Positions 5,632-22,319 of a stretch of 64,000 nucleotides of DNA are shown piece by piece. Both the position numbers and the translations under genes were made by a program. The stretch spans positions 33,001 through 97,000 of the forward strand of contig JAFQBE010000008.1 of assembly GCA_017416765.1 (NCBI GenBank), read 5' to 3'. Numbering within the stretch: the stretch's first letter is position 1; each line of letters opens with the position of its first letter. The DNA comes from Clostridia bacterium. Lineage in GTDB: Bacteria > Bacillota > Clostridia > Oscillospirales > Acutalibacteraceae. A model generated the notes under the pieces. It did not search any database. It was not told the origin of the DNA and saw only the letters and a program-made list of their open reading frames with translations.

Positions 5632-7578
5632 ATGATAAGAAAGCGTCAGGTTCACCTTGATTTTCATACTAACGGTACCCTTCCCGTCGGCAAGAATTTT
5701 TCCAAAGAGCAGTTTCAGGCTGCACTTAAAGCAGGACATGTAAATTCAATTACCGTTTTTTCAAAGTGCCACCATGGCTGGTCATACCATCCAACAAAGG
5801 TTAATGAAATGCATCCTTGTCTGGAATTTGATTTGCTTGGTGCGCAGCTTGAAGCTTGTAAAGAAATTGATGTAAACGCACCTGTATATATTTCTGCGGG
5901 CTTTGATGAAAAAGAATATGATAAAAGATCGGAATGGCGCTGTCAACCTGTTAGAGATAAAGAAGAACAGTTTAAATACAGGAATGAAGTGCATTTTCAT
6001 CAGCTTTGTTTCAATACGGAATATCTTGATTTTTTATGCAGTCAGATTGAAGAAGTAATGCAAGAATACAATCCATGCGGAATTTTTCTTGATATTATCG
6101 CACCTAAACTTTGTTTTTGCGAAAAATGTCTTAATGATATGAAGGCACTCGGACTTGATTCAAATAACAATGATGATTGCTGGAAATTTGCTGATATTAC
6201 ATTTAAAAAGTATCTTACCGCAACAAATGCTGCGGTAAGAAAATACAGCGATACAGCTACTATTTTTCATAATCAGGGACATATTCCCAAGGGTGACTAC
6301 AGTTTTATAAAACACAACACCCATCTTGAGCTTGAAAGTCTGCCTACCGGCGGATGGGGCTATGACCATTTTCCGCTTTCAGCAGCTTATGTACGCACTT
6401 TAGAAAATACAGAATTCCTTGGTATGACGGGTAAATTCCACCAGAGCTGGGGAGAATTCGGCGGTTTCAAGCACCCGAATGCACTTATTTATGAAACAGC
6501 ATTGAGTGTTGCAAACGGTGCAGGTTGTTCAATTGGCGACCAGATGCATCCGCTCGGTGAAATGAATATGGCTACATACGGTCTTATCGGTAAGGCTTAT
6601 TCATTGATTGAAGAAAAAGAACCTTGGCTTAACGGTGCGGTAAATGTTGCGGATATTGCTGTTTTAAGTGCTGAATCAGTAACGGGTAACCGCGATGCTA
6701 AAGCTGATACGGGCGCAAACAGAATGCTGCTCGAAAATAATCTGTTATATAATTTTATTGACAGCAGTATGGATTTTTCCGCTTATAAATTGCTTATTCT
6801 TCCCGATATCGGCGGATTTAATGGTGAAACAATTGAAAAAATCAGAACTTATGCAGCAAACGGCGGTAAAATAATTGCAAGCGGTGAAGCTTTGGTAAAA
6901 GATGATAATTTTATACTTGATATCGGGGCGAAATATATCGGTAGAAATGAGTATAAGCCTACTTATCTTGTACCCTGCTATCCTACCGTAAACGGAACAA
7001 CTGAATACATAATGCGTTGCAATTCATTCACATTTGAAGCTATTGACTGTGAAGTTGAAGCATATATGCAAAATCCTTATTTTAACAGAACACTTGAACA
7101 TTTTTGTTCTCATATGCACGCTCCGAATAACCCCGATAACAGTTATCCCGCTGCAATAATTAAAAGCAATGTTGCATATATAGGTTGGGATATTTTCAGT
7201 GCTTACGCAAAATATGGACACCTTTGCTTTAAAGAGCTTTTCACACATATTGTCAACAAGATGCTTGACAAAGATAAAACTGTAAACGTAGATTTGCCCG
7301 ATAAAGCAGTTGTTACCTACACAAGGCAGGAAAATGAAAAGCGAAATGTTCTCCACCTGCTGTTTGCCCATACAACAGTGCGCGGTGAAAACACAGAGGT
7401 TATTGAAGATACCGTACTGTTGTACAATGTAAAATGTTCGGTCAAATGCACAAATAAGCCGTCAAGCGTTATACTTGAACCCAGCGGACAAAAGCTTGAT
7501 TTTAATTATTCGGACGGTTATGCTGAATTCACTGTACCGCAAGTTAATATTCATCAGATGGTTGCGATAAATGAATAA
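5632..7578 (+). CDS. Predicted glycoside hydrolase, GHL6 / beta-galactosidase-trimerisation type
   Basis: 648 residues, no signal peptide, so probably cytoplasmic. The N-terminal part (about 1-330) looks like a hypothetical glycosyl hydrolase family TIM barrel: VHLDFHTNG near the start, CGIFLDIIAPKLCFCEKCL around residue 145-165 (Asp in a strand end followed by a CxxC pair), and YETALSVANGAGCSIGDQMH. The middle part (about 370-450) resembles the beta-galactosidase trimerisation/GATase-like fold (YKLLILPDIGGFNGETIEKI, NGGKIIASGEAL). The C-terminus is a beta domain. The ATG has GAGGAG upstream. Neighbouring flavoprotein and shared transcription suggest a joint role, but substrate cannot be named. 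Confidence 0.7.
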   Translation: MIRKRQVHLDFHTNGTLPVGKNFSKEQFQAALKAGHVNSITVFSKCHHGWSYHPTKVNEMHPCLEFDLLGAQLEACKEIDVNAPVYISAGFDEKEYDKRSEWRCQPVRDKEEQFKYRNEVHFHQLCFNTEYLDFLCSQIEEVMQEYNPCGIFLDIIAPKLCFCEKCLNDMKALGLDSNNNDDCWKFADITFKKYLTATNAAVRKYSDTATIFHNQGHIPKGDYSFIKHNTHLELESLPTGGWGYDHFPLSAAYVRTLENTEFLGMTGKFHQSWGEFGGFKHPNALIYETALSVANGAGCSIGDQMHPLGEMNMATYGLIGKAYSLIEEKEPWLNGAVNVADIAVLSAESVTGNRDAKADTGANRMLLENNLLYNFIDSSMDFSAYKLLILPDIGGFNGETIEKIRTYAANGGKIIASGEALVKDDNFILDIGAKYIGRNEYKPTYLVPCYPTVNGTTEYIMRCNSFTFEAIDCEVEAYMQNPYFNRTLEHFCSHMHAPNNPDNSYPAAIIKSNVAYIGWDIFSAYAKYGHLCFKELFTHIVNKMLDKDKTVNVDLPDKAVVTYTRQENEKRNVLHLLFAHTTVRGENTEVIEDTVLLYNVKCSVKCTNKPSSVILEPSGQKLDFNYSDGYAEFTVPQVNIHQMVAINE

Positions 7579-7584
7579 AATTTT

Positions 7585-7631
7585 AAGGCTAAGCAGAGCA
7601 TAAAAGCTTTGCTTAGCCTTAATAAATTTTT
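7585..7631. terminator. Bidirectional terminator between convergent genes
   Basis: Perfect or near-perfect 15-bp stem (7585-7599 with 7606-7620, AAGGCTAAGC / GCTTAGCCTT core) flanked by T-rich sequence on the plus side and A-rich sequence on the other. It lies between the stop at 7578 and the convergent stop at 7636. Confidence 0.85.
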
Positions 7632-7635
7632 AAAA

Positions 7636-8499
7636 TCAATCGGAAATCAGATTTTTATACTGATAAACTTTTACATAGTCAACTATGAATTCCGCTTCTT
7701 CTCCGGGTGTATTTTCTCTTTCACTCGGTATACCGTTTTCGCCGCGCATTTCAACAGAAAGGATAACATATTCTTCATTCTGACTTACGCCGCCAAAATC
7801 TGTTCTGAATGTTTCAACACCGTTAATATAGAAGATATATTCGTTTTCGTTCCATTCAAGTCCGTATGTGTTGAATTCTTCATAGGGGTTGTTGCCTGTA
7901 AAAAAAGCCTTTGCACCAAGCTTTTGGTGTGCTTCGCCGTAGTTATCAAAATGAAGGTTAGATGTAACGCAGTTTTCAAAAAAATCGCCGTATTTGTCAC
8001 TTTCAAATATATCAATTTCTGTGCCGTCTTTTCCGTTACAGTCTTCATTGTAAACGCCGTCATTCATAAGCCAGAACGCACTCCATATATCGGCACCCTT
8101 TGGCAGGATACAGCGGCACTCAAAATAGCCGAATTTCTGGCTGAAGCTGTTTTTTGAATCGGTATCGGTATCAATACCTGCGGTATACCAGCCGGCTCCT
8201 TTTCCACCATATCCGTCAGCGAAATACTTGACCGGAATGACAAGATTGCCCTTTTCGGTATATGCAAGATACTGATTCCAATAGCTGCCCTTTCTTGCTT
8301 CAGAAGTTTGACCGTACTGATAATGACCGGACCAGACATTGCGGTCAAGCTCACCTTCAAATTCTTCCTCAAATGTTATTGTGAATTTATCCATATCGAG
8401 CTTTTCGCCCATGGGATAACAGGGAATATCAAGCGTAAAGCAGATAAAAAGAAGGATTGAATAAAAAAATGCACCTATTTTTGAAAATACAGCAGTCAT
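7636..8499 (-). CDS. Glycoside hydrolase family 16 protein
   Basis: 287 residues. A hydrophobic N-terminus (about 10-25) suggests secretion or a membrane anchor. The rest is a GH16 concanavalin-like domain: FTITFEEEF at the start, FGYFECRC and DIWSAFWLM leading into the catalytic motif EIDIFE (Glu161 nucleophile, Glu166 acid/base, with Asp163 between), and a C-terminal FIVDYVKVYQYK strand. GH16 enzymes cut beta-1,3/1,4-glucans, galactans, carrageenans or agarose; the sequence does not decide among these. It starts 21 bases after the GDSL gene upstream, so the two are probably one transcript from the promoter at 9212-9240. Confidence 0.92.
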   Translation of the reverse strand: MTAVFSKIGAFFYSILLFICFTLDIPCYPMGEKLDMDKFTITFEEEFEGELDRNVWSGHYQYGQTSEARKGSYWNQYLAYTEKGNLVIPVKYFADGYGGKGAGWYTAGIDTDTDSKNSFSQKFGYFECRCILPKGADIWSAFWLMNDGVYNEDCNGKDGTEIDIFESDKYGDFFENCVTSNLHFDNYGEAHQKLGAKAFFTGNNPYEEFNTYGLEWNENEYIFYINGVETFRTDFGGVSQNEEYVILSVEMRGENGIPSERENTPGEEAEFIVDYVKVYQYKNLISD

Positions 8500-8520
8500 T
8501 GTTATGTATCCTTTTGTTAA

Positions 8521-9180
8521 TTATTTTCTGTTATTAATTGCGGGTTCTACACATTCTTTCCAACGCCTTGCAATAAGCTGATGCGCGCCCGTTGTGGGGT
8601 GAACACCGTCCCAAAGCAGACTATGAATATCCACATGTTTTGCATAATCGTCAAAAATATCCTGCAATGGAACAAATACCGCGTTATATTCTTTGGCAAT
8701 TCTTTTAGCCGCATCTACATAAAAACCAATGTTTTTCCTAATAAATTTATCTCGTTCAGTATTATCGGATACTCCGTAAAACGGCTCCATTATTACAATT
8801 AAAGTATCAGGGTTTTGTTCAACAACTTCATCGAGTAGCAAGCGGTAAATTTTTTCGTATCTTTCAGGTGATGAACCGTGACCGTATTCAAAAACGCTGT
8901 ATATATCGTTAACACCGATAAGAATGCTTAAAATATCAGGCTTAATTTTCAGGCAATCTTCCTGCCATCTGCCGTAAAGTTCAGCTATTCTGTTCCCGCT
9001 TACTCCCCTGTTAACTACGGTTATATTCTTATCAAGGTTGTCTGCGTACATTTCTGATGCAATTATGTACTGATATCCGTGTCCGTGTATATGATTCAGG
9101 TCTTGATTTCTGCCGCGGTTACCGTCGGTAATAGAATCGCCCTGAAAAAGTATGACATCGTTTTCTTTAAGCTTGAACAT
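8521..9180 (-). CDS. SGNH/GDSL-family hydrolase (esterase/deacetylase-like)
   Basis: 219 residues, no signal peptide. All four blocks of the SGNH family are visible: GDSITDG (nucleophile Ser16), RGVSGNR (Gly62), IGVND (Asn91) and WDGVHPT near the C-terminus (Asp191, His194). Such enzymes remove acetyl or other acyl groups from sugars. Located directly upstream of the GH16 gene, it may deacylate the same polysaccharide. GAGG precedes the ATG by eight to ten bases. Confidence 0.9.
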   Translation of the reverse strand: MFKLKENDVILFQGDSITDGNRGRNQDLNHIHGHGYQYIIASEMYADNLDKNITVVNRGVSGNRIAELYGRWQEDCLKIKPDILSILIGVNDIYSVFEYGHGSSPERYEKIYRLLLDEVVEQNPDTLIVIMEPFYGVSDNTERDKFIRKNIGFYVDAAKRIAKEYNAVFVPLQDIFDDYAKHVDIHSLLWDGVHPTTGAHQLIARRWKECVEPAINNRK

Positions 9181-9240: not shown

Positions 9241-9318
9241 GCAATAATTAAATTTTGAATTTTTCTTTGTGGAAATAAGATTTAATATATGTTATACTTT
9301 CAAAAAGGGGGCATTTTA

Positions 9319-11304
9319 GTGAAAAAACGCACAAAAGTATTTCTGTCAGTCGTTATTTCAATAGCTTTGGTGATTTTGTTGGGTATAACTAACATTATCC
9401 CTTATTTTGCAGTTATTCCCGATATGGTAAAAGTAGGCGTCGATTACATTTCGCTGAAAAGAAATAAAAATGCTGTGTCGGAAAGTGAATTGAATGAAAT
9501 TATAGTAAAACAGTTTGAAAATGTCAGCCACCCGTTTGTACTGGCTGATAAAGGCTGTTTTGAGTCAGTCAAAAAGGAAATAACTGATAATAGTTTTACT
9601 GAATATACCGCAGGACTATACAACAATGTTATTTCAAATGCTGATGCACTGCTTGATACAGATATTTATCCCGTATTGGAGTATGTACTTGATGAGGAAG
9701 ACAGCATATTGCCTATTTCGCGTGAAGTTATTAACCGCATGGTTATACTCGGATATGCATACCAGATAACCGGGAAGGAAGAATATGCAAAACGAGCATG
9801 GGCTGAACTTGAAAATGTATGCTCTTATGAGGATTGGTGTACCGGTCATTTTTTAGCTACGGCAGAAATGGCACTTGCAGTATCAATTGGTTATGATTGG
9901 TTTTTTGATTATCTGAATGACGAGCAGAAGGTCTTGCTTTCGGATACTGCTTGGGAATACGCAATTGAGCCTGCTTTAACAAGTAACCATTGGTTTACCT
10001 GGTCAAAGAATAATTGGAACAGTATCTGCTACAGCGGTATCGGAATAGCTTGCATGGCTTTTGCAGAAAATAACCCCGAAAAAGCGGCCGAATTTCTTGC
10101 AATGTGCTACAAGAATATGCCGATTGCTTTTGAAAACTTTACACCTGACGGTGTTTATGCTGAAGGACCGGGGTACTGTCAGTCAGGTATGAATTCAATT
10201 GTTTTCTTTATTGCTTCATCAAGAAATTATTTCGGTTCGGATTTTGGAATGGCTGAAACTGACGGATTCAAGGAATTAGGCTATTTCCCTGTTTATATAA
10301 CCACACCAACTGGTATGTTCAACTTCGGTGATAATAAGGCGGAGAAATGTTATTCACCTGTACTTCATTGGTACGCCAATGAATATAATGCTCCACTGTT
10401 GAGTTCATATCAAGCAACTGATTTACCCGGAGAATTTGTTATAAATACATCCGATTCCACCGAGCGAAACGGCAGCGGAAAAGAATATGCTTTATCTTCA
10501 ATATGGTATAACAGAGCTTTTTTGAATGAAAATGCAGACTTTGTTAACGAACCGCTTTCTGTTTTACTTAAATCCGATGTCGGTCAGCCGTTGGTGCTTA
10601 TGCGCAGCGCTTATCTTGATAAAAACGCAGCTTTTGCAGGAATAAAGGGCGGATATAATTTTATTAATCACGGCGACCTCGATATAGGTACATTCGTATT
10701 TGATGCCATGGGTGAACGCTGGGCAGAAGAACTTGGACCGGGCAGCTATGACGCACCGAATTATTTTCTTAACACCCCTGCCGGTGGAAGATGGAAGAAC
10801 TATTGCAAGCGTGCCGAAGGACAGAATACTCTTGTAATAAATCCTGATGCAACACTTGATGACCAATATGTTTTAGCGGAATGTGATTTCACAGAATTTG
10901 AGGCGTATGATATCGGCGGTAAAGCTGTGCTTGATATGACCGATGCTTACCGCATGAACGGTGCAACAAAAGTAAACAGAGAATTTGAAATGTACGATAA
11001 TTCCTGCCTTAAAATTACAGATACGGTAAAATGTGTTGTACCGAGTGAAATATATTGGTTTATGCATACAAAGGCGGATATAAGTATAAGTGATGACGGA
11101 AAAACCGCAATTCTTACAATTAACGGAAAACAGATTAAAGCTACTCTTTCGGGTGACGGTGAATTTTCTGTAATGAAGGCCGAAGGCTTAAAGGGAAAAT
11201 ATGAATATGACGCAGATTATTCCGATATCCGTAAACTCACAGTTCACCTTACCAATGTTAAATCAGCTGAAATTACCGTTGATTTTAAGCCCTTAACAGA
11301 ATAA
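9319..11304 (+). CDS. Heparinase II/III-like polysaccharide lyase
   Basis: 661 residues from the GTG at 9319. I prefer this start to the ATG at 9289 because AAAGGGGG sits seven bases upstream of the GTG and the protein then begins MKKRTKVFLSVVISIALVIL, a normal signal peptide or membrane anchor. About residues 80-320 form an alpha-helical toroid (TAEMALAVSIGYDWFFDYL, then HWFTWSKNNWNSICYSGIG). The second half has the beta-sandwich signature of heparinase II/III-like enzymes, FINHGDLDIGTFVFDAMGER followed by WAEELGPGSYD. These families cleave uronic-acid polysaccharides (heparin-like glycans, alginate, oligoalginate) by beta-elimination. It is monocistronic, and no sugar-specific neighbours identify the substrate. 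Confidence 0.85.
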   Translation: MKKRTKVFLSVVISIALVILLGITNIIPYFAVIPDMVKVGVDYISLKRNKNAVSESELNEIIVKQFENVSHPFVLADKGCFESVKKEITDNSFTEYTAGLYNNVISNADALLDTDIYPVLEYVLDEEDSILPISREVINRMVILGYAYQITGKEEYAKRAWAELENVCSYEDWCTGHFLATAEMALAVSIGYDWFFDYLNDEQKVLLSDTAWEYAIEPALTSNHWFTWSKNNWNSICYSGIGIACMAFAENNPEKAAEFLAMCYKNMPIAFENFTPDGVYAEGPGYCQSGMNSIVFFIASSRNYFGSDFGMAETDGFKELGYFPVYITTPTGMFNFGDNKAEKCYSPVLHWYANEYNAPLLSSYQATDLPGEFVINTSDSTERNGSGKEYALSSIWYNRAFLNENADFVNEPLSVLLKSDVGQPLVLMRSAYLDKNAAFAGIKGGYNFINHGDLDIGTFVFDAMGERWAEELGPGSYDAPNYFLNTPAGGRWKNYCKRAEGQNTLVINPDATLDDQYVLAECDFTEFEAYDIGGKAVLDMTDAYRMNGATKVNREFEMYDNSCLKITDTVKCVVPSEIYWFMHTKADISISDDGKTAILTINGKQIKATLSGDGEFSVMKAEGLKGKYEYDADYSDIRKLTVHLTNVKSAEITVDFKPLTE

Positions 11305-11310
11305 AGCAAT

Positions 11311-11344
11311 TCACCGTGTGATACTAAGAAATATCGCACGGTGA
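11311..11344. terminator. Bidirectional terminator between convergent genes
   Basis: TCACCGTG (11311-11318) pairs with CACGGTGA (11337-11344), extended inward with few mismatches; T-rich sequence follows on the plus strand. It separates the stop at 11304 from the convergent stop at 11351. Confidence 0.75.
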
Positions 11345-11350: not shown

Positions 11351-12391
11351 TTATTTACTCAAAAAATCAAACGATTTACTGCCGCTGACGGAATGTTTAC
11401 CGTCAAACACGTCAATTACTAATTTGTTTTCGACACCGACAAGTTTATAAATTCGCTTGATATTTTCATGTGCTTTCTCGCTTGCGTCAATCGGGAAAAG
11501 TTTGTCTTTTTTACCCGATTCGATTAGTAATTCTCTCGGTGCAAGCGATGAAGCAAAATCATATATTTCGCCGATTTTCATAATGCCGGGTATATAGTTA
11601 TCCGGACAATGCCAACGCGAAAGAATACTGTCACGAAATGTGTTTACATATCCGCTGATAACTATTTTCTTAAAGCTGTCTTCAATTACGCCGGCATAAA
11701 GTGCTGTAAGTCCGCCGCCCGAAATACCCATACATGAAAGCTTTTCTTTGTTGATTCTTTTGTGCTTTAAAAGTATTTGTGCGCATACTTCAGCCTGATA
11801 AACGCGCATAGCAGCTACCGTCAGACCATAGGGTAAAAGGTGGTGTGAAAGCTCATCACACGAGCTTATATAAAAAGGTTTAATCAAATCCTTTTTCAGC
11901 CTTGCCTCACCGAAACCGAAAAGTTCGGGTGCAATAACAATACAGCCGCGCTTTGCAAGCTCAACTGCAAAGTTTTTTTGATAATTGTCAAGATAATTAA
12001 TTCTTTTTTTATGTCCGCTTTTTGAAATGTTAAGAATTTGTCTTACACCGTAGCCGTGACCGCAAAGAGCAACAACACCGGGGGCGTTTTCCACTGCTGT
12101 GTTTGGTTCAAGCATATAATACAGCATTTTTAAATCTTTGCAGATTTCAACGGAATACTTTTGCAAAGTGTACCCTTTATAAACAAGCGGTCTGCCTGTT
12201 GCAACAGGCTCAAAATCAAAAGTTTTATTCGGAATTCTGTCAATTGCAAGTAAAGCCCTCGTCTGCTGCTTAATACGCTCCCCTATCTGTAAAGCTGATT
12301 TCGAATCGTTTACATTTTCATACGGCTTTGCAAGAACTGCATCATATAACCCGTTCATAAAGCTATCGGGCGTGTATATGTTTTTTTTCAT
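11351..12391 (-). CDS. Alpha/beta hydrolase (acetyl-xylan esterase / Abhydrolase_7-like)
   Basis: 346 residues from the ATG at 12391, which has GGGGT eight bases upstream and lies 13 bases after the GH3 stop; a longer reading frame would overlap GH3 and is not needed. No signal peptide. Alpha/beta hydrolase features: GHGYGVRQ (oxyanion region), MGISGGGLTALYAG with the nucleophile in GISGG, then LIESGKKDKLFPI (acid) and FDGKHSVSG (His) at the C-terminus. Large members of this type act as acetyl-xylan or carbohydrate esterases. It is the last gene of the five-gene operon and may remove acyl groups from the glycoside handled by the upstream GH3 enzyme. Confidence 0.82.
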   Translation of the reverse strand: MKKNIYTPDSFMNGLYDAVLAKPYENVNDSKSALQIGERIKQQTRALLAIDRIPNKTFDFEPVATGRPLVYKGYTLQKYSVEICKDLKMLYYMLEPNTAVENAPGVVALCGHGYGVRQILNISKSGHKKRINYLDNYQKNFAVELAKRGCIVIAPELFGFGEARLKKDLIKPFYISSCDELSHHLLPYGLTVAAMRVYQAEVCAQILLKHKRINKEKLSCMGISGGGLTALYAGVIEDSFKKIVISGYVNTFRDSILSRWHCPDNYIPGIMKIGEIYDFASSLAPRELLIESGKKDKLFPIDASEKAHENIKRIYKLVGVENKLVIDVFDGKHSVSGSKSFDFLSK

Positions 12392-12404
12392 AAAAATACC
12401 CCGA

Positions 12405-14474
12405 TTAAAATTCAATGCCGCCGATTTTTTTCGCATTGCCGCTGCTTGTACCGACAAGTACGGAATAGTTTTTATCAAGCACCCAATCGCCTGTTTCAGG
12501 GCTGTAGAATTTAATTTCATCAAGCGGAATATCTATTTTAACAGATTCAGCTGAATTTGTTTTTACTGCAATACGCTTGAAGCCTTTAAGAAGCTTAACA
12601 GGGCGGTCAACATCAGTATTATTACTTGAAATATAAACCTGAACAACTTCTTCGCCATCAACATCGCCGATGTTTTTTACATCAACCTGTATGGTTATTG
12701 CTTTATCATCACAAGTAACACAGGCGTTTTCTAACTCGAACTGAGTATAAGAAAGACCGAAGCCGAAGGGATACTGCGGCTCAATATTCTTTTTATCCAT
12801 GAGTGTATAGCCGTGATAATAGCCGTAATCAATTTCACGCTCTTTATCGGATATATGTAAAAACTTCGGGTAATCTGTATCGTTAAAGCAAACAGTAAAG
12901 GGCAGTTTGCCGCCGGGGTTAACATCGCCGCTTAAAACATCAGCAAGGGCATTCCCGCCTTCAAGTCCGCTATAGAACGAGAACAGAATTGCATCTGCCA
13001 TATCAGTCCACTCTTTGATAACATAGGCACTGCCGCCCATTATATTGACAATAAGCTTTTTTCCTGTTGCGGACAAAGCCTTGATAAGTGCAACATCCTC
13101 GGGCGGAATGCGCAAATCAGCCCTGTCGCCGCCTGAACCTTTGGGCTTTTTCTTAACATTGCCGAGGTTTACAAGGAACTCGCCTTCCTGAAGCCAGTCG
13201 CTGCCCACACAAACAACAATATAATCCGAATCAGCGACAGCCTGTTTTGCTTTCTCAACTTCACAACCGTTGTATACGGTAACATTACTATCACTAAAGC
13301 GGTTTTTAATACCTTCATAAGCAGTTACGGTATATAGGCTGTAAACATTGCTGCTGCCGTGGTCACCTACATTTACTTTGTTTGCATATCTGCCGACTAC
13401 AGCAATTTTTTTGCCTTGTTTTAAAGGCAGAGTATTGTCGGAATTTTTAAGCAGAACTGTACCCTTACCTGCCACTTTTCGTGCAAGTGCAGTATGTTCC
13501 TTGGAAAGAATTACGGATTTTGGCTGTTCTTTGTAGTTGGGTAAGGTTTTGATAAGTGCCTTTAAAATTCGGGATACGCAAAGGTTGATATCATTTTCTG
13601 TTAGTTCACCTTTTTTAAGTTTGTGGTTAAGTACGGCATAGCGGAAATAATAAGGCATTTCCATATCCATACCGGCTTTAACGCTTTTAACCGCATCATA
13701 AATTCCGTAGAAAAAATCAGAAAGCGTAAAGCCTTCAAAGCCCCATTTATCGCGAAGTATATCGGTAAGCAGTTCTTTATTTTCACAACTGTATGTGCCG
13801 TTTACCTTGTTGTAAGCACCCATAATTGACATTGCACCCGCATCAATACATTTTTTAAAATGAGGCAGATATACCTCGTGCAATGTTCTTTCATCAGCCC
13901 TTGCATCAACCTTGAAGCGTAAATCCTCAATACTGTTAAGTGCATAGTGTTTCGGGCAGGCAATAATTCCGTTATTCTGCATTGCTTTTGTAAGGGCTGC
14001 ACCCATTTTGCCAAGCAGAAACGGATCTTCACCGTAGGTTTCCTGCGCTCTGCCCCACATGGGATTTCGAAGTAAATTAATACAAACACCTGCATAAAGG
14101 TTAGCACCCAATGCACTTGCTTCCTTTGCAAAAACTTCGCCTATCTGATATTCAAGCTCATCATCAAAAGTTGCACCGCGAAGCATTGAAACAGGAAAGC
14201 AGGTGCATTTGCCCATAACTATGCCCCTTGGTCCATCGGTAAAGAGTACGGGCGGAATACCGAGTCTTTTACAGCCGCCTGCCGGATAAGCTTCACCGTT
14301 ATAATAACGTCCCTTTGTGAGCGTATTTTTTATTGTTACACCCATGGCATGACCCTGCATCATACGCACTTTTTCTTTTAAACTCATTGCGCTGACAAGC
14401 TGTTGTGTCACATCGTTAAGTACTTCGGGTGTGCTTTTTTCTTTGTACATTTTTAATGCAGCTGTAAAGTTCAT
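12405..14474 (-). CDS. Glycoside hydrolase family 3 (beta-glucosidase-like)
   Basis: 689 residues, cytoplasmic (no signal peptide). Domains: GH3 N-terminal barrel (about 35-310) with CPKHYALN (Lys175, His176) and the nucleophile Asp253 in LSDFF; GH3 C-terminal alpha/beta domain (about 345-560); fibronectin III-like domain at the end (about 600-675). The order matches canonical two-domain GH3 beta-glucosidases/beta-xylosidases; SDFF in place of the commoner SDW is a conservative change. GGGAGAG precedes the ATG. The gene follows the FAD flavoprotein by 32 bases and precedes the esterase by 13, so it belongs to the redox operon and could release sugar from a plant glycoside before or after the reductions. 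Confidence 0.93.
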   Translation of the reverse strand: MNFTAALKMYKEKSTPEVLNDVTQQLVSAMSLKEKVRMMQGHAMGVTIKNTLTKGRYYNGEAYPAGGCKRLGIPPVLFTDGPRGIVMGKCTCFPVSMLRGATFDDELEYQIGEVFAKEASALGANLYAGVCINLLRNPMWGRAQETYGEDPFLLGKMGAALTKAMQNNGIIACPKHYALNSIEDLRFKVDARADERTLHEVYLPHFKKCIDAGAMSIMGAYNKVNGTYSCENKELLTDILRDKWGFEGFTLSDFFYGIYDAVKSVKAGMDMEMPYYFRYAVLNHKLKKGELTENDINLCVSRILKALIKTLPNYKEQPKSVILSKEHTALARKVAGKGTVLLKNSDNTLPLKQGKKIAVVGRYANKVNVGDHGSSNVYSLYTVTAYEGIKNRFSDSNVTVYNGCEVEKAKQAVADSDYIVVCVGSDWLQEGEFLVNLGNVKKKPKGSGGDRADLRIPPEDVALIKALSATGKKLIVNIMGGSAYVIKEWTDMADAILFSFYSGLEGGNALADVLSGDVNPGGKLPFTVCFNDTDYPKFLHISDKEREIDYGYYHGYTLMDKKNIEPQYPFGFGLSYTQFELENACVTCDDKAITIQVDVKNIGDVDGEEVVQVYISSNNTDVDRPVKLLKGFKRIAVKTNSAESVKIDIPLDEIKFYSPETGDWVLDKNYSVLVGTSSGNAKKIGGIEF

Positions 14475-14506
14475 TATTATCTCTCCCTAAGAATGCAATT
14501 AAATTT

Positions 14507-16288
14507 TTAATCAACATTAATATCATTCAGGTAACTTTCAAACGGTTTATTCAATTTAGGTACGGGTTTAACGGGTTCAAATGAAACTTTGCCGTTTTCG
14601 GTTACGGTAAGAAAAGCTCTGTAATTAATATCTTCGTCAACGGTTTTACCGTTATCTGTGAACACTGCTCCGCCGCGGCTGCCCGTTAACGGCATTTCAC
14701 CGAGTATTGTTTCCAGCAGTGCCTTTGCGCAGATAAGCATGTCTTTGTCATAAAAATACTTGCTCAAACTTTTATGCTGTAAAGGATAAGAATTAAGCAG
14801 TTTATTGATTTTTTCAAGCAGGATTTCACATTCATTTTTATTGCGCAAGAAAGCGGCAGATTTGCTCATTTCAGCTGTGATGCCAGAATAATCTGTTTTG
14901 CTGTCCGTAATAAAAGAACTGTATTTTTTAAAATAATCTTTTGGTATTTCAAATATAAAATCACAGCGCTGTTTATTTTTAATGCTTTTTGCACACAGTA
15001 ATGCACTGACCTGTGTATCATTCAAGGCTGTACCGCCTGGGCGTGCAAGCCCGAATGTACCTGCAGCCTCACCGATAACATAAAGCCCACTGATATTGGT
15101 TTCGTAGTTATTATCGGTATAAACACCGCCGTTGTTGTGCTGTGCACAAACGGCAATTCTTAACCACTGGCTTGATATATCAATGTTCTGCCTTGAATAA
15201 ACATCAATTGCTTTTGAATTCAGCTTTTTTAGCCGTTCAAAAGGTGTAGCCTGTGTTGCCTTGTTGCTTTCAAGGTATTGCCTTGCTTCTTCATCAAGGG
15301 TTTCAAAGCTGAAGCCTGTAGGATTTACCGTAAAATCAAGGTAGACTTTTCTGCCTGCTTTTGTTTCGTTATGTACGGCAATATCAATGAGTGAAGATTT
15401 GTTCATTCTTGCGTAGCTAAACGGCCACTGATAACCTTTAAGGAAAATGTACCTGCACATTTCCGATGGAGTATTAAAATATTCAGTAAGGAATTCATAT
15501 TCCTTTCCGTATTCGTCTACGCTTACAAATTTCGGTATTACCTGCATAAAGCTGCCTGAAACATTCCAACGGAAATCAACGGAAGCCATACCGTACTGCC
15601 ATTGCGAAAAATTGCAAAGCTTTACACCGGCTTCAACAAGTACACCGGTCATTCCATGCTGCGATTCTGGATAAACAGAATTTTTATAAATACACGCAGG
15701 TGCACCTGTAGCGCATACAACATTTCGGGAATAAAAACATTCAAAACCGTTTGTTTGAGTGTTTAATACGGCAACACCTGCTACTTTGTCGGAGCTTTTA
15801 AGTATTTCAATAACCTGACGGTTATCAAAAAGAGGTGTTTTGTTTTCTGTCAGTACAATCTTTTCAAGTTGTTCCGTCATTATTTTTGATGTCAACGGAC
15901 CTACAGATGTTGCGCGTACAGTATTGTCGTGGTCGGTTTTATACCCCGGAAATCCGCCGAAACCATCACGCGGAAAAGATACACCGTAATCACAAAGCCG
16001 CAGAAAACATTCGGTGCTGTTTACAGCCTGCAGATACATTTTTTCGCCGTCACAACAGCCTGCTGAAAAAATATCCTGCGCCATTTTATAGGGACTATCC
16101 TGAATGAAACCGTCCATTGACAGCTTATAGTATGTCTGTTTATCGCTTCCTGTGTTCCTTGATGTACCGCTTAACCTGTTTTCGGTAACTACAGCGATAT
16201 CGGTTATACCGAGTTTATGCAGTCTGTCTGCCGCACTGAATGCAGCGGCACCGCTGCCGATAATTATTGCGTCATAAATCTTATTCAT
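14507..16288 (-). CDS. FAD-dependent fumarate-reductase-like flavoprotein
   Basis: 593 residues from the ATG at 16288, which overlaps the SDR stop as ATGA and has GTGAG upstream; an ATG two codons earlier is also possible. The N-terminus binds FAD (YDAIIIGSGAAAFSAADRL), then LSGTSRNTGSDKQTYY. The FAD-binding-2 part ends with HNNGGVYTDNNYETNISGLY and VIGEAAGTFG; a helical C-terminal domain follows. This is the succinate dehydrogenase/fumarate reductase flavoprotein fold. Known relatives reduce double bonds or act on cyclic ketones and ethers, including tetrahydrodaidzein reductase. It lies between an SDR and a GH3 enzyme in one operon. The true substrate is unknown. Confidence 0.85.
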   Translation of the reverse strand: MNKIYDAIIIGSGAAAFSAADRLHKLGITDIAVVTENRLSGTSRNTGSDKQTYYKLSMDGFIQDSPYKMAQDIFSAGCCDGEKMYLQAVNSTECFLRLCDYGVSFPRDGFGGFPGYKTDHDNTVRATSVGPLTSKIMTEQLEKIVLTENKTPLFDNRQVIEILKSSDKVAGVAVLNTQTNGFECFYSRNVVCATGAPACIYKNSVYPESQHGMTGVLVEAGVKLCNFSQWQYGMASVDFRWNVSGSFMQVIPKFVSVDEYGKEYEFLTEYFNTPSEMCRYIFLKGYQWPFSYARMNKSSLIDIAVHNETKAGRKVYLDFTVNPTGFSFETLDEEARQYLESNKATQATPFERLKKLNSKAIDVYSRQNIDISSQWLRIAVCAQHNNGGVYTDNNYETNISGLYVIGEAAGTFGLARPGGTALNDTQVSALLCAKSIKNKQRCDFIFEIPKDYFKKYSSFITDSKTDYSGITAEMSKSAAFLRNKNECEILLEKINKLLNSYPLQHKSLSKYFYDKDMLICAKALLETILGEMPLTGSRGGAVFTDNGKTVDEDINYRAFLTVTENGKVSFEPVKPVPKLNKPFESYLNDINVD

Positions 16289-17022
16289 AAGCATCTCACA
16301 TTAAATCCGCCGTCGCAGTCAATTACCGTGCCTGTGCAGAAATCAAAATCGCCCTTGGCTATTGCGGCAACACATCTGCCTATATCCGACGGTTTGCCCA
16401 TTCTTTTAATCGGTGTTATACCGTCTGCTATAAGCTTTTCATATTTTTCTTTTACTTTTACTGTCATGTCGGTTTCTATAATTCCGGGTCTTATTTCAAT
16501 TACGCTGATTCCGTATTCTGCAAGTCTTGCGGCATACAGCTTTGTAATCATTGAAATACCTGCTTTGGATATGCAGTATTCACCTCGGTTGACGGAGGCT
16601 GTGTATGCTGACATTGAAGAGATGTTTACTATTCTTGCACTGCCGGCAGCTTTCAGTAAATCAACAAATTTTTGTGTTACAAAAAAAGTACCCTTCATGT
16701 TGATATCTGTTACATAATCAAATTCTTCAGGATTTAACTCAAGAATATCTTTTCTTTCCTTAGGGGCAACACCTGCATTGTTAACAAGTAAGTCAATTTT
16801 TTCGAATTTATTTTTAACCTGTAAAACAAGATTTTCAATATCAGGAAAAGAAGAAATATCGCAGGGTATAAATAAAAGTCTGTCGGGATATTCATTTGAT
16901 AATTTTTTAAATTCTTCGTTTGTATTTCGGGAGGTAGCCACAACGGTAAACCCGTTTTTAAGTAATTCTTTTGCAATGCCTAAACCTATTCCCTTTGTTC
17001 CGCCGGTAATTACAGCTGTCAT
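16285..17022 (-). CDS. Short-chain dehydrogenase/reductase
   Basis: 245 residues, the standard length for a classical SDR. Visible motifs: cofactor loop TGGTKGIG (residues 6-13), NNAG (81-84), Ser136/137, and the catalytic pair in YCISK (Tyr149, Lys153), followed by RPGIIETDMT. AAGGGGTG lies before the ATG. It sits 12 bases after the Old Yellow Enzyme gene and overlaps the FAD flavoprotein by four bases, so the three oxidoreductases are translationally linked. It would interconvert an alcohol and a ketone using NAD(P)H. Confidence 0.92.
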   Translation of the reverse strand: MTAVITGGTKGIGLGIAKELLKNGFTVVATSRNTNEEFKKLSNEYPDRLLFIPCDISSFPDIENLVLQVKNKFEKIDLLVNNAGVAPKERKDILELNPEEFDYVTDINMKGTFFVTQKFVDLLKAAGSARIVNISSMSAYTASVNRGEYCISKAGISMITKLYAARLAEYGISVIEIRPGIIETDMTVKVKEKYEKLIADGITPIKRMGKPSDIGRCVAAIAKGDFDFCTGTVIDCDGGFNVRCL

Positions 17023-17034
17023 TTTTTACACCCC

Positions 17035-18255
17035 TTATTTGTTGAGTACATACTTTTTATAGTACGGCATATAAGTTTCGCTGTCTCTTACCGGGCAGCC
17101 TGCTACAGTGCCGGCACGCATAAGCTGAGAACATTTACTGCATTTTAAACAGAGCTTACTTTTGTTAAGCTGACCGTTTTCAAGATAATCGCGGTAAAAA
17201 TCAGGATAGGCAAAAGTAAGTCTGCCAAAGCCTGCGAAATCAGCAACACCGTTATTAATTATCAATTCAGAATATTTCATCGCGTTTTCGCCGGCAAAGG
17301 ATAAACCGGAAGCAATAAAATACATATCTGGAAACTCGTTTTTAAGTTCTGATGTAACATTATATATTCTTTTCATTCCTGTTTCACCGTCTTCAGGTGC
17401 ATTGATGCACGGACGGTTGATGTGAGGAATAAGATAAGGATTTCCTAAAGTAAGATTTATCAGCCTTATTCCTTTATCATAAAGTGATTTGATTATCTGT
17501 TTTGTTTCAGTCAAATCTATATTGTTGTTTTTATCTACGCCGTATCCGTAAGGATATGGGAAGCAGTCGCAGGCATTGAGCCTTGTTGTAACAATGGTAT
17601 GTTCACTTACTGCTTCTTTGACAGCATCAATACACTCAAAATATAGTCTTGTTCTGTTTTCAAGGCTGCCGCCATACATGCCTTCGCGCTCGGTTGCGCT
17701 TAAAAATTCGTTAAACAGGTAGCCGTGGCAACATTTTACATCAATACCATCAAAACCGACTTCTTCGGCAAGTTTTGCTGCGGTAAAATACTTGTTCGGA
17801 ATAGTTTTGCAGTATTCATCGGTTGAAATTACATAAGGCTGGTTTTCTTTGCCGATTTCCCAATGTGAATTACGGTATGCAACAATAGGCTTTGGTGTAC
17901 CGTCAGGTTTGCTGAATCTGCCGCTGTGGGTCAGCTGAACTATTATTATTGGCTCAAATCCGCATTCTTTTAATGCAGTTGTTTTGATATCGTTAATTAA
18001 AACTTTAAACGAATCCTTTGTTTTTTCATTCAAAAAAAGCTGACGCGGGTTAGCTCTGCCTTCGGCAGTAACGGCGGTTGCTTCAAACCATATTATGCCT
18101 GCACCGCTTTTGGCAAAGCGCAAATAGCGTCTGTATGTCAGTTCATCAACAGCACCGTGTGCAGTACCGTCGCACCCTTCCATCGGGTGAAAAACAATAC
18201 GGTTTTGTATTTTTCTGTTATGTAATTCCAACGGCATCTGAAGCACTGAATTCAT
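17035..18255 (-). CDS. Old Yellow Enzyme family NADH:flavin oxidoreductase with C-terminal Fe-S cysteines
   Basis: 406 residues. An FMN-binding TIM barrel with VQLTHSGRFSKP (about 106-117), HGYLFNEFLS (catalytic-position Tyr179) and GGSLENRTR (195-203), all diagnostic for the family. The C-terminus carries four cysteines in the spacing C-x2-C-x2-C-x11-C (369, 372, 375, 387), as in the [4Fe-4S] enoate/2,4-dienoyl-CoA reductases. Those enzymes are usually 640-670 residues with an extra FAD/NAD(P)H domain, which is absent here, so electrons must come from another protein; the FAD flavoprotein two genes downstream is one candidate. It is the first gene of the operon and would reduce an activated C=C bond. 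Confidence 0.9.
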   Translation of the reverse strand: MNSVLQMPLELHNRKIQNRIVFHPMEGCDGTAHGAVDELTYRRYLRFAKSGAGIIWFEATAVTAEGRANPRQLFLNEKTKDSFKVLINDIKTTALKECGFEPIIIVQLTHSGRFSKPDGTPKPIVAYRNSHWEIGKENQPYVISTDEYCKTIPNKYFTAAKLAEEVGFDGIDVKCCHGYLFNEFLSATEREGMYGGSLENRTRLYFECIDAVKEAVSEHTIVTTRLNACDCFPYPYGYGVDKNNNIDLTETKQIIKSLYDKGIRLINLTLGNPYLIPHINRPCINAPEDGETGMKRIYNVTSELKNEFPDMYFIASGLSFAGENAMKYSELIINNGVADFAGFGRLTFAYPDFYRDYLENGQLNKSKLCLKCSKCSQLMRAGTVAGCPVRDSETYMPYYKKYVLNK

Positions 18256-18317
18256 ATTGCTTACCCTCTTATTTCACTTTTAGATTAATTATAACAGATA
18301 AGCTTTTTGTAAGCAAT
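18256..18317 (-). promoter_or_regulatory. Promoter of the OYE-SDR-flavoprotein-GH3-esterase operon, with inverted repeat
   Basis: On the minus strand, TTGCTT (18311-18316) and TATAAT (18288-18293) are 17 bases apart. The 9-base sequence GTAAGCAAT (18309-18317), which overlaps the -35 box, is repeated in inverted form as ATTGCTTAC (18256-18264) directly at the start codon. The paired sites may be operator sites for an unseen regulator. Confidence 0.6.
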
Positions 18318-19014: not shown

Positions 19015-19956
19015 TTAATCGTTAAATTCCTTGTCGTATGCAATAACCTTGCCTGTTTCGGCATTAATTTCATATTCATACTCATATTTGCCGGCAACGA
19101 ATTCAACATCATAGTGAACTACCATATCGTCACGGTCAAGTTCTGCCTTTGAATATTTTACATCTGCAGCCTTTACTTTAGCGTGGTTATAAGCTACGGA
19201 TTTTGCTTTATCAGCGGAAATATAATCGTTTGCTTCGGATGTTGCTTTAACGGGGTTTCTTTCTCTTTCAACGTCTTTATCTATGATTGCACCGTCTGCA
19301 GCCTTAATCTCGTACTCATACTCGTAGCCGTTTGCCTCAAACTTGATTTCGTAGTGAGGAACAAGGTCGTCGTAATCGTAGTAAGCTTTCAGGAAGACTG
19401 CATCTTCGGCTTTCACACCTGCGTTGTCAAGTGCCTTCTTCTTTGCAGCTTCAACGCTGATATAGCCGTTGTTATTATTGTTGCTATTTTTTTTCGTTGT
19501 GTTTTCTTTGCTTACGGGTGCTTCATTTTTTTCAGGGGCTTTGCTCTTTTCTGTTGTCTTATCCTTTACAGTGACAGGGACATCAATCTTTTCGGCTTCC
19601 TTTTCAGCATTCAGAACTGCACCGTCAGCAACTGCGATTTCGTATTCGTATTCATATTTATCATAGGAGAATTTGATATCGTAGTGTGCTTTTCCGTCGT
19701 CTTTATCAAGTGAAGGTGTGCCATACAGTACAGCATCTTCTCGGGCGATTCCTGCGTGCTTGAGTGCTGCATCAATAGCGGCATCAGGGTTTATGCTTGT
19801 AAGTTCTTCGTTGTTTACCTCCGGTGCAGAAGCCTGCGCCTGATTTACTGTTGCTTTTTCTTCAACCTGTGGTTTGTTGTCTGTGCATCCTGCAAGTGCA
19901 ATAACCGATAAAACCAAACCCGCGGAAATTAATGCTATTAAAATCTTTTTTTTCAT
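19015..19956 (-). CDS. PepSY-domain lipoprotein with three PepSY repeats
   Basis: 313 residues from the ATG at 19956, chosen because AGAGGTG lies six bases upstream; a GTG three codons earlier would sit inside that site. The signal peptide ends in the lipobox LAGC, so it is an outer-surface lipoprotein. After a linker there are three PepSY domains (about 55-115, 165-225 and 235-310), each with an AxxxAxxHAGV-like helix and a YEYEYEI strand, separated by a Lys/Glu/Asn-rich linker. PepSY domains are thought to inhibit or sense proteases or peptides outside the membrane. The adjacent histidine kinase has a similar domain in its sensor loop, so the lipoprotein and kinase may respond to the same signal. 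Confidence 0.88.
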   Translation of the reverse strand: MKKKILIALISAGLVLSVIALAGCTDNKPQVEEKATVNQAQASAPEVNNEELTSINPDAAIDAALKHAGIAREDAVLYGTPSLDKDDGKAHYDIKFSYDKYEYEYEIAVADGAVLNAEKEAEKIDVPVTVKDKTTEKSKAPEKNEAPVSKENTTKKNSNNNNNGYISVEAAKKKALDNAGVKAEDAVFLKAYYDYDDLVPHYEIKFEANGYEYEYEIKAADGAIIDKDVERERNPVKATSEANDYISADKAKSVAYNHAKVKAADVKYSKAELDRDDMVVHYDVEFVAGKYEYEYEINAETGKVIAYDKEFND

Positions 19957-19987
19957 TTCAGTCACCTCTTATAAATTTTATGTATTT

Positions 19988-20004
19988 GTCAAGTTTTCCT
20001 TGAC
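19988..20004 (-). promoter_or_regulatory. Inverted repeat between kinase and PepSY lipoprotein genes
   Basis: GTCAAG and CTTGAC are separated by five bases in the 93-base gap upstream of the lipoprotein gene. There is no T-run, so an operator or mRNA-processing hairpin is more likely than a terminator. Confidence 0.35.
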
Positions 20005-20049
20005 TGTGACTAAAGCATAATCTCCAAAGATTAAAGGAACATTAGAAAA

Positions 20050-21648
20050 TCAAACTTTTTTAAAAATAATTGAAATTTCCGTAAAATTATCAATTTCAGA
20101 TTCAGCAAGGCATTCAGCAGAATGAATTTCAGCTATTTTTTTAACAAGAGCAAGACCGAGTCCGAAGCCTTCGGTTTCAGACCTTGAAGCATCTGCCCTG
20201 TAAAACCTGTTCCATATTTTAGGCAGGTCAGTTTCGCTTATACCTATTCCGTCATCTCTTACCGACAAAACTACATTATCAGCTTTTGAATATAATTTTA
20301 CATTTATAATGCCCTTTTCTCTGCCGTATTTATCAGCGTTAGAAATAAGGTTTTCTACAAGCTGTGTAATAAGTGAAGTGTTTAATTTAATTTCAATATT
20401 TTTTTCTATATCTGCTGTTAATTCAATATTTTTTGTTGACTTGAATTTACTGCATACTTCATCTACAAGCTCACTGAGATTTTCTTTTTTTAATTCAAAT
20501 CTGTTTATTCCGTGTTCAGCTCTTGTTACGGCAAGAAGTGAAGAAACAAGCGATACCATTTTATCTGTCTGTTCTTCAATTGATTTAAGTGCCTGTACTT
20601 TGTCGTTGGCATCGGCATTAACCGAAAGAGCGTATTCACACTCAGCTTTAATAACCGCAAGCGGAGTGCGCAGCTCGTGTGAAGCATCGGAGGTAAAGCG
20701 TTTTTCGTTTTCAAACGAAACATGCAGCCTTTCAAACATATCATTGAATGTATCGGCAAGATTGTTTATTTCTCGGGGTGCTTTGTTTGTTTCGAGCCTT
20801 TTTGAAAGGTCGTTACCTGTTGAAATTTCGCGCGCTGATGCTGTTATCTTCTCAATTGGCGAAATCGCTTTTTTAGAGATAATATACGCGCCTAATGCGG
20901 CTATAATTATGAAAATCGGAAAAAGATATACAGCACTTTTAGCTACGGTACCAAATACAGTAACCGCATCATCAGACGGACATATTGCGCGGATATAGAT
21001 TTTTTCGTAAGAAGAACTGTCAGCTGTAAATTCAATCTTAAATACCTGTCTGTCCTGATATAAAGGAATATCAACCCCTATTATAGTTGCATCTTCTTTG
21101 CTTACTCCGGCATGAGAAAGCACAATATCAATTGCCTGACTTGTGCTTATACCGTTTTTGAATACTGTTTCGGAATAAGGAGTCGGTTTCAATGCATTTA
21201 CAGGGGTTACATCTGCTTCGTAAGAGATTATCTGACCTGATATAACATCAATTTCATATTCAAATTTAGTAAATTCAAGCAGTTTTGAATATAAATAATA
21301 TTTTTCTCCGTTGAGCTCCTTTTCAATAACTTCTGTATTTCCGAGTGATGCAGATTCAACCAGAGCAGCAGGTGTTTCACCGCCGATATATTCGCCGTTT
21401 TCAGTAAATAAATCGCAGTATATTCCGCCCGAATAATAGGAAAAATCGTTTTCAACTTCAAATATACCATTGCTGTATTCCATTTCGTCCGAATTACTCT
21501 GTACTATTGCAATCAGATTCTGTTTCAGTTTATCATCTGCAGCTTTTTCACTTACAATTAACAGCAAGGATATACTTATGCCGCATACAAGGGCAATCAA
21601 AGCAGTTATCCAGAGTGTTGTTAATATTTTAAACGAAACCTTTTTCAT
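20050..21648 (-). CDS. Sensor histidine kinase with extracellular PepSY domain
   Basis: 532 residues. Two membrane segments (about 12-32 and 235-258) enclose an extracellular sensor of about 200 residues that ends in a PepSY-like domain (GISTSQAIDIVLSHAGV, about 165-225). Then come HAMP (about 258-310), the dimerisation/phosphoacceptor helix with FTSDASHELRTPLAVI, and the ATPase domain with N-box ENLISNADKYG, VRDDGIGIS and GFGLGLAL. The ATG overlaps the regulator's stop by four bases (ATGA). It would phosphorylate the regulator encoded just upstream. The PepSY sensor links it to the downstream PepSY lipoprotein. Confidence 0.93.
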   Translation of the reverse strand: MKKVSFKILTTLWITALIALVCGISISLLLIVSEKAADDKLKQNLIAIVQSNSDEMEYSNGIFEVENDFSYYSGGIYCDLFTENGEYIGGETPAALVESASLGNTEVIEKELNGEKYYLYSKLLEFTKFEYEIDVISGQIISYEADVTPVNALKPTPYSETVFKNGISTSQAIDIVLSHAGVSKEDATIIGVDIPLYQDRQVFKIEFTADSSSYEKIYIRAICPSDDAVTVFGTVAKSAVYLFPIFIIIAALGAYIISKKAISPIEKITASAREISTGNDLSKRLETNKAPREINNLADTFNDMFERLHVSFENEKRFTSDASHELRTPLAVIKAECEYALSVNADANDKVQALKSIEEQTDKMVSLVSSLLAVTRAEHGINRFELKKENLSELVDEVCSKFKSTKNIELTADIEKNIEIKLNTSLITQLVENLISNADKYGREKGIINVKLYSKADNVVLSVRDDGIGISETDLPKIWNRFYRADASRSETEGFGLGLALVKKIAEIHSAECLAESEIDNFTEISIIFKKV

Positions 21649-22319
21649 TTTTCCTCCTTGAGTACATAACCCATTCCTCTGACTGTATGAATAAGCTTTT
21701 TGTCATATCCGTCATCAATCTTTTTGCGAAGGTAGCGAATATATACATCAACAACATTTGTACCGCCTTCGTAATCGTAATTCCAGATATGGTCTTCAAT
21801 TTTTTCACGGCTGAGTACGATTCCGTTATTTACCGCGAGATATTGCAAAAGCTCGTATTCCTTTGCAGAGAGAGAAATATCCTTACCGTTTCTGGTAACC
21901 TTTTTGCTTGAAATATCAACAGTAAGGTCAGCTACGCAAATAGTATTTGATTTTGAAACGCTGTTTTTTCTGATTATAACTCTGATTCTTGCAAGCAATT
22001 CCTCAAAAGCAAAGGGTTTAACAAGATAATCGTCTGCGCCGATGTCAAGCCCTTCTACTCTGTCTTCAATGCTGTCGCGGGCTGTAAGGAACAAAACCGG
22101 AAGATTATTGCCTTCATGTCTTATTCTTTTTAAAAGAGAAAAACCGTCAATTTTCGGCATCATGACATCAAATATTGCAGCATCATAATCTGTCATGCTA
22201 ATCAGGTCATAGGCTTCCTCGCCGTTGAAGCAACAGTCTACACTGTAGCCTGAAACTTTTAGCTGCTTTGCAATTATTCTGTTAAGGCTTTTTTCATCTT
22301 CTGCAATAAGAATTCTCAT
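21645..22319 (-). CDS. OmpR-family response regulator
   Basis: 224 residues. Receiver domain with the acidic pair (IAEDEKS), phosphoacceptor Asp in AAIFDVMMPKIDGF (about residue 51), LTAR and the Lys in YLVKPF; then a winged-helix DNA-binding domain ending VDVYIRYLRKKID and HTVRGMGYVL. It is the first gene of the two-component operon, with a promoter at 22357-22385. Its targets probably include its own operon and the PepSY lipoprotein. Confidence 0.95.
   Translation of the reverse strand: MRILIAEDEKSLNRIIAKQLKVSGYSVDCCFNGEEAYDLISMTDYDAAIFDVMMPKIDGFSLLKRIRHEGNNLPVLFLTARDSIEDRVEGLDIGADDYLVKPFAFEELLARIRVIIRKNSVSKSNTICVADLTVDISSKKVTRNGKDISLSAKEYELLQYLAVNNGIVLSREKIEDHIWNYDYEGGTNVVDVYIRYLRKKIDDGYDKKLIHTVRGMGYVLKEEK

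Follow-up and report, generated by a model that had tools for sequence, protein, structure and literature searches.

In the equol gene cluster, daidzein reductase (DZNR), dihydrodaidzein reductase (DDR) and tetrahydrodaidzein reductase (THDR) belong by superfamily to the old yellow enzymes (OYE), the short-chain dehydrogenases/reductases (SDR) and the fumarate-reductase-like flavoproteins, respectively. The same three superfamilies, followed by a GH3 glycosidase and an esterase, are encoded by a minus-strand operon (positions 11351 to 18255) of the DNA analysed here, a stretch of 64,000 nucleotides from a Clostridia bacterium of the Acutalibacteraceae (GenBank assembly GCA_017416765.1, contig JAFQBE010000008.1, positions 33,001 to 97,000; hereafter the window), and an earlier note on this DNA, drawing the analogy with equol and bile-acid operons, proposed that the operon may deacylate and deglycosylate a plant phenolic or terpenoid glycoside and then reduce its enone and ketone. 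DZNR itself consists of an OYE/FMN domain, a 4Fe-4S motif and a coenzyme-binding domain, as described in PMC9164157. A second described system, the KduI-KduD/DhuD-DhuI route, shares with the loci discussed below its presumed end point (a kinase and 2-keto-3-deoxy-6-phosphogluconate (KDPG) aldolase), an SDR, a lyase context and, in one locus, import by a phosphotransferase system (PTS), but it has no counterpart to the OYE, to the SdhA-fold flavoprotein or to the AsbF-like TIM barrel; the word flavin does not occur in the main text of PMC12838403, which treats this route. We consider it probable, on balance, that the operon represents, in this lineage, a redox module widespread among anaerobes, composed of OYE, SDR and flavoprotein and often joined by an AsbF-like TIM-barrel lyase/isomerase (TIM) and a D-2-hydroxyacid dehydrogenase (HADH), which turns a uronate-derived or other sugar-acid intermediate toward 2-keto-3-deoxygluconate (KDG), and whose substrate is most likely an oxidised or unsaturated intermediate. 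The three oxidoreductases are called the trio; in gene orders, FAD denotes the SdhA-fold flavoprotein and EST the esterase.

That the three oxidoreductases belong together, as the earlier note supposed, is borne out by their distribution. The flavoprotein family is present in 40 of the 295 genomes of the order (39 of these at E < 1e-110), its relatives lie in at least 560 stretches of a GTDB scan, and in a sample of the phylum it was found in 9 of 199 genomes, the present one included, with a sister flavoprotein family in 9 more. Neighbouring open reading frames (ORFs) were called by a greedy longest-ORF script; because two of the resulting clusters (c8 and c12) were judged from their position to consist of ORFs antisense to OYE and SDR, a recount of the trio was made with tblastn. 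Upstream of the flavoprotein gene and on the same strand, SDR was found in 62 and OYE in 59 of 65 loci, and both together in 59; the scorable loci are the 80 GTDB loci kept minus 15 with less than 2.5 kb upstream of the flavoprotein gene, and those without both genes are L076, L110, L113, L118, L132 and L149. Across the order, the OYE family (membership cut where the scores jump from E 7e-55 to 5e-40) occurs in 39 of 40 flavoprotein carriers versus 2 of 255 non-carriers (p 4e-45, Fisher test; the tests of co-occurrence cover all 295 genomes and ignore their kinship). The two genes are on different contigs in G015, G156, G226, G005, G205 and G243, among others; the long contigs of G156 and G226 show them to be really separate there, with SDR and TIM accompanying the OYE. 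Co-occurrence of this kind, even when the genes are unlinked, is strong evidence for one shared pathway, and the recurrence of the trio in synteny across many genera exceeds chance. The conservation that the earlier note looked for in all five genes does not extend beyond the trio: GH3 is present in 6 and the esterase in 9 of the 80 loci, mostly those of the nearest relatives, which is half of what the note would have taken as its refutation. As separate observations, the flavoprotein gene adjoins an M20-type peptidase gene in L041, L042, L044 and L064, OYE being not adjacent but present elsewhere in those genomes, and in L068 and L069 it is followed by AAA_3/MoxR, DUF58 and transglutaminase genes (Pfam on L069), a neighbourhood that looks unrelated.

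The recurrent partners of the trio indicate sugar acids and KDG. In a set of 118 loci, which includes the window and the duplicate pairs L033/L084 and L040/L117, HADH (cluster c3) occurs in 38 and TIM in 37, and AraC regulators also recur (Pfam of representatives). Among the first 25 families listed when Pfam domains were counted in 168 of 230 neighbouring ORFs, picked by hand, the heparinase II/III C-terminal domain was the commonest in one scan (7/81) and tied with Gfo/Idh/MocA in a second (6/87). At the level of genomes, the flavoprotein co-occurs with the heparinase II/III domain (26/40 carriers vs 31/255 others) and with TIM (30/40 vs 15/255, membership cut in the gap between E 2e-47 and 2e-21), and TIM also tracks heparinase-type lyases (28/45 vs 29/250). 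Genes for KDPG aldolase and a PfkB kinase adjoin the trio or lie at most two genes from it in L053, L057, L094 and L126 (assigned by cluster, and checked against Pfam in L126), and stand beside a TIM-HADH pair in L173 of genome G217, where the trio is on another contig and the aldolase was checked against Pfam; from its pairing with KDPG aldolase, the PfkB-family kinase is presumed to be a KDG kinase. In the genome that holds the window, KDPG aldolase likewise adjoins a kinase of the PfkB cluster, at C36. A Schnuerera locus (L134) brings together AraC, OYE, SDR, FAD, mannose-type PTS genes (recognised by eye), a HepC-like lyase, HADH and TIM, with a kinase of the same PfkB cluster on the opposite strand.

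Three sister loci, L184 to L186, carry the same OYE family (47-58% identity to the best relative) with the sister flavoprotein. L184 also encodes an SDR, a Zn-dehydrogenase, an IlvD/Edd-type dehydratase, a PfkB kinase and tripartite ATP-independent periplasmic (TRAP) transporter genes; L185 a galactarate-dehydratase-like protein (below the model cut-off), a Zn-dehydrogenase and TRAP-like genes; and L186 a Zn-dehydrogenase beside the OYE and the sister flavoprotein. Such loci would suit a different substrate, in that the trio could serve, without net redox change, for the oxidation/epimerisation or deoxygenation of a rare sugar or cyclitol acid (for instance L-gulonate, L-idonate or inositol-derived keto acids), with the lyase link secondary: they hold Zn-dehydrogenases, IlvD/Edd-type dehydratases and TRAP genes and no ORF matching the lyase clusters, and the Zn-dehydrogenase of L184 fits models of threonine 3-dehydrogenase, scyllo-inosose dehydrogenase and L-idonate 5-dehydrogenase, all below cut-off. 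Gfo/Idh/MocA proteins are moreover common neighbours of the trio (5/81 and 6/87 in the two scans), and weak scores were obtained for TIM on models of psicose epimerase and IolE and for a second TIM (L093) on IolO. We regard this alternative as possible but unlikely, since heparinase-type lyases are the commonest or joint commonest neighbouring family and co-occur with the trio at the genome level. Far less probable still is that the trio serves for detoxification or as an electron sink, with no role in carbon use, and stands in glycan operons by chance; OYEs and SdhA-type flavoproteins are often so used in anaerobes, but distant genomes repeatedly link the trio to sugar-acid dehydratases, PfkB kinase and KDPG aldolase. 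In two of the sister loci (L185 6174-7223 and L186 10961-11974), genes resembling MtaA/URO-D-type corrinoid methyltransferases lie beside the OYE and sister flavoprotein, which could hint at O-methylated sugar acids; the first has an HMM score below cut-off and the second was judged from the start of its sequence.

The OYE-family protein matches the Oxidored_FMN domain of Pfam at 112.6 bits (cut-off 27), which places it in the OYE superfamily, and shares with Fe-S OYEs of the FadH/BaiCD/BilR type an FMN-binding TIM barrel followed by four cysteines. It aligns to residues 6-372 of the 672 of E. coli FadH and ends where the third domain of FadH starts, some 300 residues short; the C-terminal FAD/NAD(P)H domain is absent from it, as the earlier note had stated, and the three-domain plan given above for DZNR is not found. 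Classical one-domain OYEs of the NemA/YqjM type are also without a coenzyme domain and use NAD(P)H directly. The unusual electron path that the earlier note expected does not therefore follow from the missing domain alone, which is not in itself unusual; what is unusual is that a 4Fe-4S-type set of cysteines is kept without it. These cysteines (C369, C372, C375 and C387) are each present in 77 of 78 aligned family members, with the Fe-S-type spacing CX2CX2CX11C as against CX2CX3CX11C in FadH (after length filters and removal of both copies of the two duplicate pairs, the conservation alignments held 78 rows for OYE, 108 for FAD and 84 for SDR). K174 and H177 are found in 78 of 78 members and Y179 is also kept, K174 standing where NemA has its first active-site His. 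In a tree, a fully supported branch separates the family, together with its sister-locus members, from FadH-type proteins, which were represented by few, long-branched references; a FadH-type protein of 708 aa is also encoded in the same genome.

These features bear on the equol- or bile-acid-like path, in which GH3 and the esterase would release a plant phenolic or terpenoid aglycone, the OYE would reduce its enone and the SDR its ketone, and the flavoprotein would finish the sequence. The operon does contain the superfamilies of DZNR, DDR and THDR together with a GH3 and an esterase, and its OYE weakly resembles the BaiCD and BilR models. However, the scores are 91.8 bits against an equivalog cut-off of 825 for BaiCD and 76.8 against 425 for BilR (bilirubin reductase), every cut-off in the NCBIfam scan being missed by a wide margin; the OYE has one domain and Lys for His, in a clade separate from the FadH type; and GH3 and the esterase are rare among the loci, where the recurrent partners are sugar-acid genes. 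On account of those partners, the missing coenzyme domain and the scores below cut-off, we reject this path as very improbable. A coupling of ester and glycoside removal to ketone and alkene redox, as the earlier note pictured, is still plausible; the plant substrate is not supported, as it is lyases, sugar-acid dehydratases, a PfkB kinase and KDPG aldolase that recur beside the trio.

The SDR scores 296.3 bits on NCBIfam NF009386 (cut-off 250) and has the Ser-Tyr-Lys triad of SDRs (S136, Y149 and K153), found in 84 of 84 members. The flavoprotein family matched no curated model in the scans made; the protein carries the motif SRNTGSDKQTYYK, and a 15-member alignment has 111 invariant columns. 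With the flavoproteins of fumarate reductase and succinate dehydrogenase it shares the fold, the FAD domain and R418, the equivalent of R390 of FrdA. The other three FrdA residues compared, the catalytic Arg and two substrate residues, are lost, R287 being replaced by S300 (in 108 of 108 members), H355 by Q385 and H232 by G235, and because of these losses the flavoprotein is, judged by its catalytic residues, not a fumarate reductase. The description "fumarate-reductase-like" in the earlier note thus holds for the fold and fails for three of the four residues; unlike fumarate reductase and succinate dehydrogenase systems, moreover, the operon is without an SdhB/FrdB-like gene. The flavoprotein may reduce or oxidise a carboxylate that stands beside a C=C or C-OH. 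As for TIM, its profile has AsbF as best PDB match (E 1.4e-18), followed by IolI (3e-7). By the residue list of PMC9324987 for AsbF, a 3-dehydroshikimate dehydratase, TIM keeps the positions of Y70, R102, E142, H144 and H198; Gln stands in place of D172, H175 and K200 have not been conserved, and E253 is not covered by the alignment.

Convergent with the operon in the window is a gene for a PL35-like polysaccharide lyase, about 540 residues of which are similar to PL35 glycosaminoglycan lyases (8khv, E 9.6e-59). Its N242, Y296 and H461 match the catalytic triad of these GAGases and the paired Asn241 is kept, and of the Mn-site residues (H403, D405, D421 and H457) the ligand H403 is Asp and D405 is kept; in PMC12088678, alanine mutants of the Asn-Tyr-His triad are reported to have lost activity. 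A hydrophobic N-terminal stretch, a further difference from the described GAGases, suggests export. The gene is the only Hepar_II_III_C match in its genome, and as a PL35-like gene is convergent with the operon in L072, L073, L074 and L079 as well, the neighbourhood in close relatives points to it as a putative functional partner. On its other side (4262-9180) lie an FMN reductase/flavodoxin-like gene, a GHL6/GH42-like putative glycoside hydrolase, and GH16-like and GDSL esterase genes, which together with the lyase possibly form one larger glycan locus.

Conservation, co-occurrence, neighbourhood and residue changes were observed directly, and from them we infer a substrate and an order of steps for the sugar-acid module. 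In this lineage, the exported PL35-like lyase would make unsaturated uronide ends outside the cell, a transporter would import the products (compare the MFS_2 gene in the operon of L074), and the esterase and GH3 would trim acyl and sugar groups. SDR, TIM, OYE and flavoprotein would then take the acidic sugar to an intermediate at the level of KDG, with SDR and flavoprotein carrying out C-OH/C=O steps and the OYE reducing an enone or enoate via FMN, supplied with electrons by NAD(P)H directly or by way of the Fe-S site. The last steps would fall to a KDG-type PfkB kinase and a KDPG aldolase, whose genes lie elsewhere in the genome.

Several observations weigh against this reading. Many trio loci, and 14 of the 40 trio genomes (13 if a hit in G000 is counted), have no heparinase-type lyase, TIM is absent at the cut used from 10 of the 40 and from the window operon itself, and the sister loci with TRAP genes may handle free sugar acids rather than lyase products. 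GH88 occurs in 15 of 40 trio genomes versus 34 of 255 others, so that the lyase link may partly reflect glycan-rich genomes; it is not on the flavoprotein contig in any of the 15 (contigs often being short), and a weak GH88 hit in G156 is some 25 kb away from OYE; the idea that the trio replaces GH88 is conceivable on these data. For KduI, no significant tie to the trio was found (12/40 vs 46/255 genomes, p 0.09); it is never on the flavoprotein contig in those 12, and in the present genome it is on another contig. A Pfam scan found no KduI in the operon, DhuI not having been searched for. We also considered the trio as a KduI replacement and discarded the idea, as KduI shows no significant anti- or co-occurrence with it, and the genome's own KduI means that the module is not needed in that capacity. 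Finally, cluster c10 (L034 3613-5307 and relatives), a conserved protein of about 560 aa with many invariant residues that stands beside the trio or TIM in 9 of 118 loci, gave no Pfam match for either of two members examined; as a heparinase it was rejected (hhalign probability 0.6%), having no detectable kinship to the lyases.

A more specific version of the chemistry, which we think quite unlikely, is a third route for lyase-made unsaturated uronides that would do without unsaturated glucuronyl hydrolase and KduI/DhuI. The SDR would oxidise C3 of the 4,5-unsaturated uronide to give what is, on paper, 3-dehydroshikimate with a ring oxygen, so that the AsbF-like TIM could eliminate the C1 substituent, splitting the glycosidic bond and leaving a comenate-like pyrone. 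Formation of the pyrone would call for two flavin reductases; OYE and flavoprotein would reduce the two double bonds, and hydration and keto steps (HADH) would lead to KDG. Redox count and formula balance on paper, each step being conjectural.

Should the sugar-acid reading of the trio be correct, it would describe a flavin-dependent step of acidic-sugar use hitherto undescribed and common to many anaerobes, to judge by the number of GTDB stretches with flavoprotein relatives; the carriers are often of herbivore-gut origin according to database records. Two orphan families, the Lys/His OYE and the DKQTYYK flavoprotein, would gain a function, new ene-reductases acting on highly oxygenated acids would be at hand, and caution would be advisable before OYE/SDR/flavoprotein trios in gut metagenomes are labelled equol- or bile-acid-like. 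The trio probably has a part, through a step not yet described, in the digestion of acidic polysaccharides rather than in the processing of plant drugs or hormones. No description of the trio or its pathway was found in the literature searched, in which subscription journals were poorly covered.

The features of the window are collected in Table 1. The arrangement of five minus-strand genes with gaps of at most 32 bases or overlaps, as first described, agrees with the ORF coordinates (from OYE to esterase: 12 bases, an overlap of 10, 32 and 13), and the domain assignments agree with Pfam; an alternative TTG start would extend the esterase reading to 12523. The promoter proposed for the operon has an extended -10 (TGTTATAAT) and a poor -35 (3/6), on account of which it is missing from the list of a consensus scan; as that scan gave 31 promoter-like sites versus 34.3 in shuffles, a single match proves little. 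The hairpin proposed as terminator is real, but its tail is weak in the operon direction, so that bidirectional termination shared with the lyase gene is the most it could provide. Another hairpin, on the minus strand (18404-18372), lies 3' of a nitroreductase gene upstream of the operon.

Table 1. Genes and putative signals of the operon and its surroundings; coordinates are those of the window.
Feature	Coordinates	Strand	Remarks
PL35-like polysaccharide lyase	9289-11304	+	8khv/8khw/9o3q, E 1e-56 to 1e-59; convergent with operon
Hairpin, 13 pairs	11311-11344		Separates lyase gene and operon, which converge; terminator score in the direction of the lyase gene (+) only
Alpha/beta-hydrolase esterase	11351-12391 (from ATG)	-	346 aa; PF12715
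GH3 glycosidase	12405-14474	-	689 aa; PF00933 + PF01915 + PF14310
SdhA/FrdA-fold FAD flavoprotein	14507-16294	-	595 aa; PF00890
SDR oxidoreductase, PRK12745-type	16285-17022	-	245 aa; NCBIfam NF009386
OYE-family FMN protein	17035-18255	-	406 aa; Pfam PF00724
Candidate extended -10 promoter	18288-18316	-	TGTTATAAT; not in consensus-scan list
HADH, probable partner	22531-23526	+	PF02826; 77-79% identical to HADHs beside FAD or OYE in L074, L076

The GH3 protein has an SDF motif at D253, presumably the nucleophile, its nearest solved chains are beta-glucosidases (E 4e-103), and no signal peptide was apparent on inspection by eye. The esterase has distant PDB relatives in 3g8y and 3nuz, and its presumed triad (Ser224, Asp296, His333) is invariant in 8 of 8 relatives. 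In the nearest relatives (L072-L075, L078 and L079), both genes come after the trio; they are lineage-specific local additions. As the order in L072 is OYE-SDR-FAD-TIM-HADH-GH3-EST, the window operon has probably lost TIM and HADH from its middle; L074 has the MFS_2 gene inside the operon, and L078 an 86% identical transporter-like ORF at the same place, after FAD. The TIM of the present genome is at C46:3352-4104, beside other glycoside hydrolase genes, and is 66% identical to its nearest relative here; in that locus (L166 1700-8180) it follows a GLAA-B (GH110-like) protein and precedes a second AP_endonuc_2 TIM barrel and another GH3. The stretch that separates the operon from the HADH gene of the window (19015-22319) encodes a PepSY-domain protein and a histidine kinase/response regulator pair, the pair being read by eye, which may have a sensing role or be a mere spacer.

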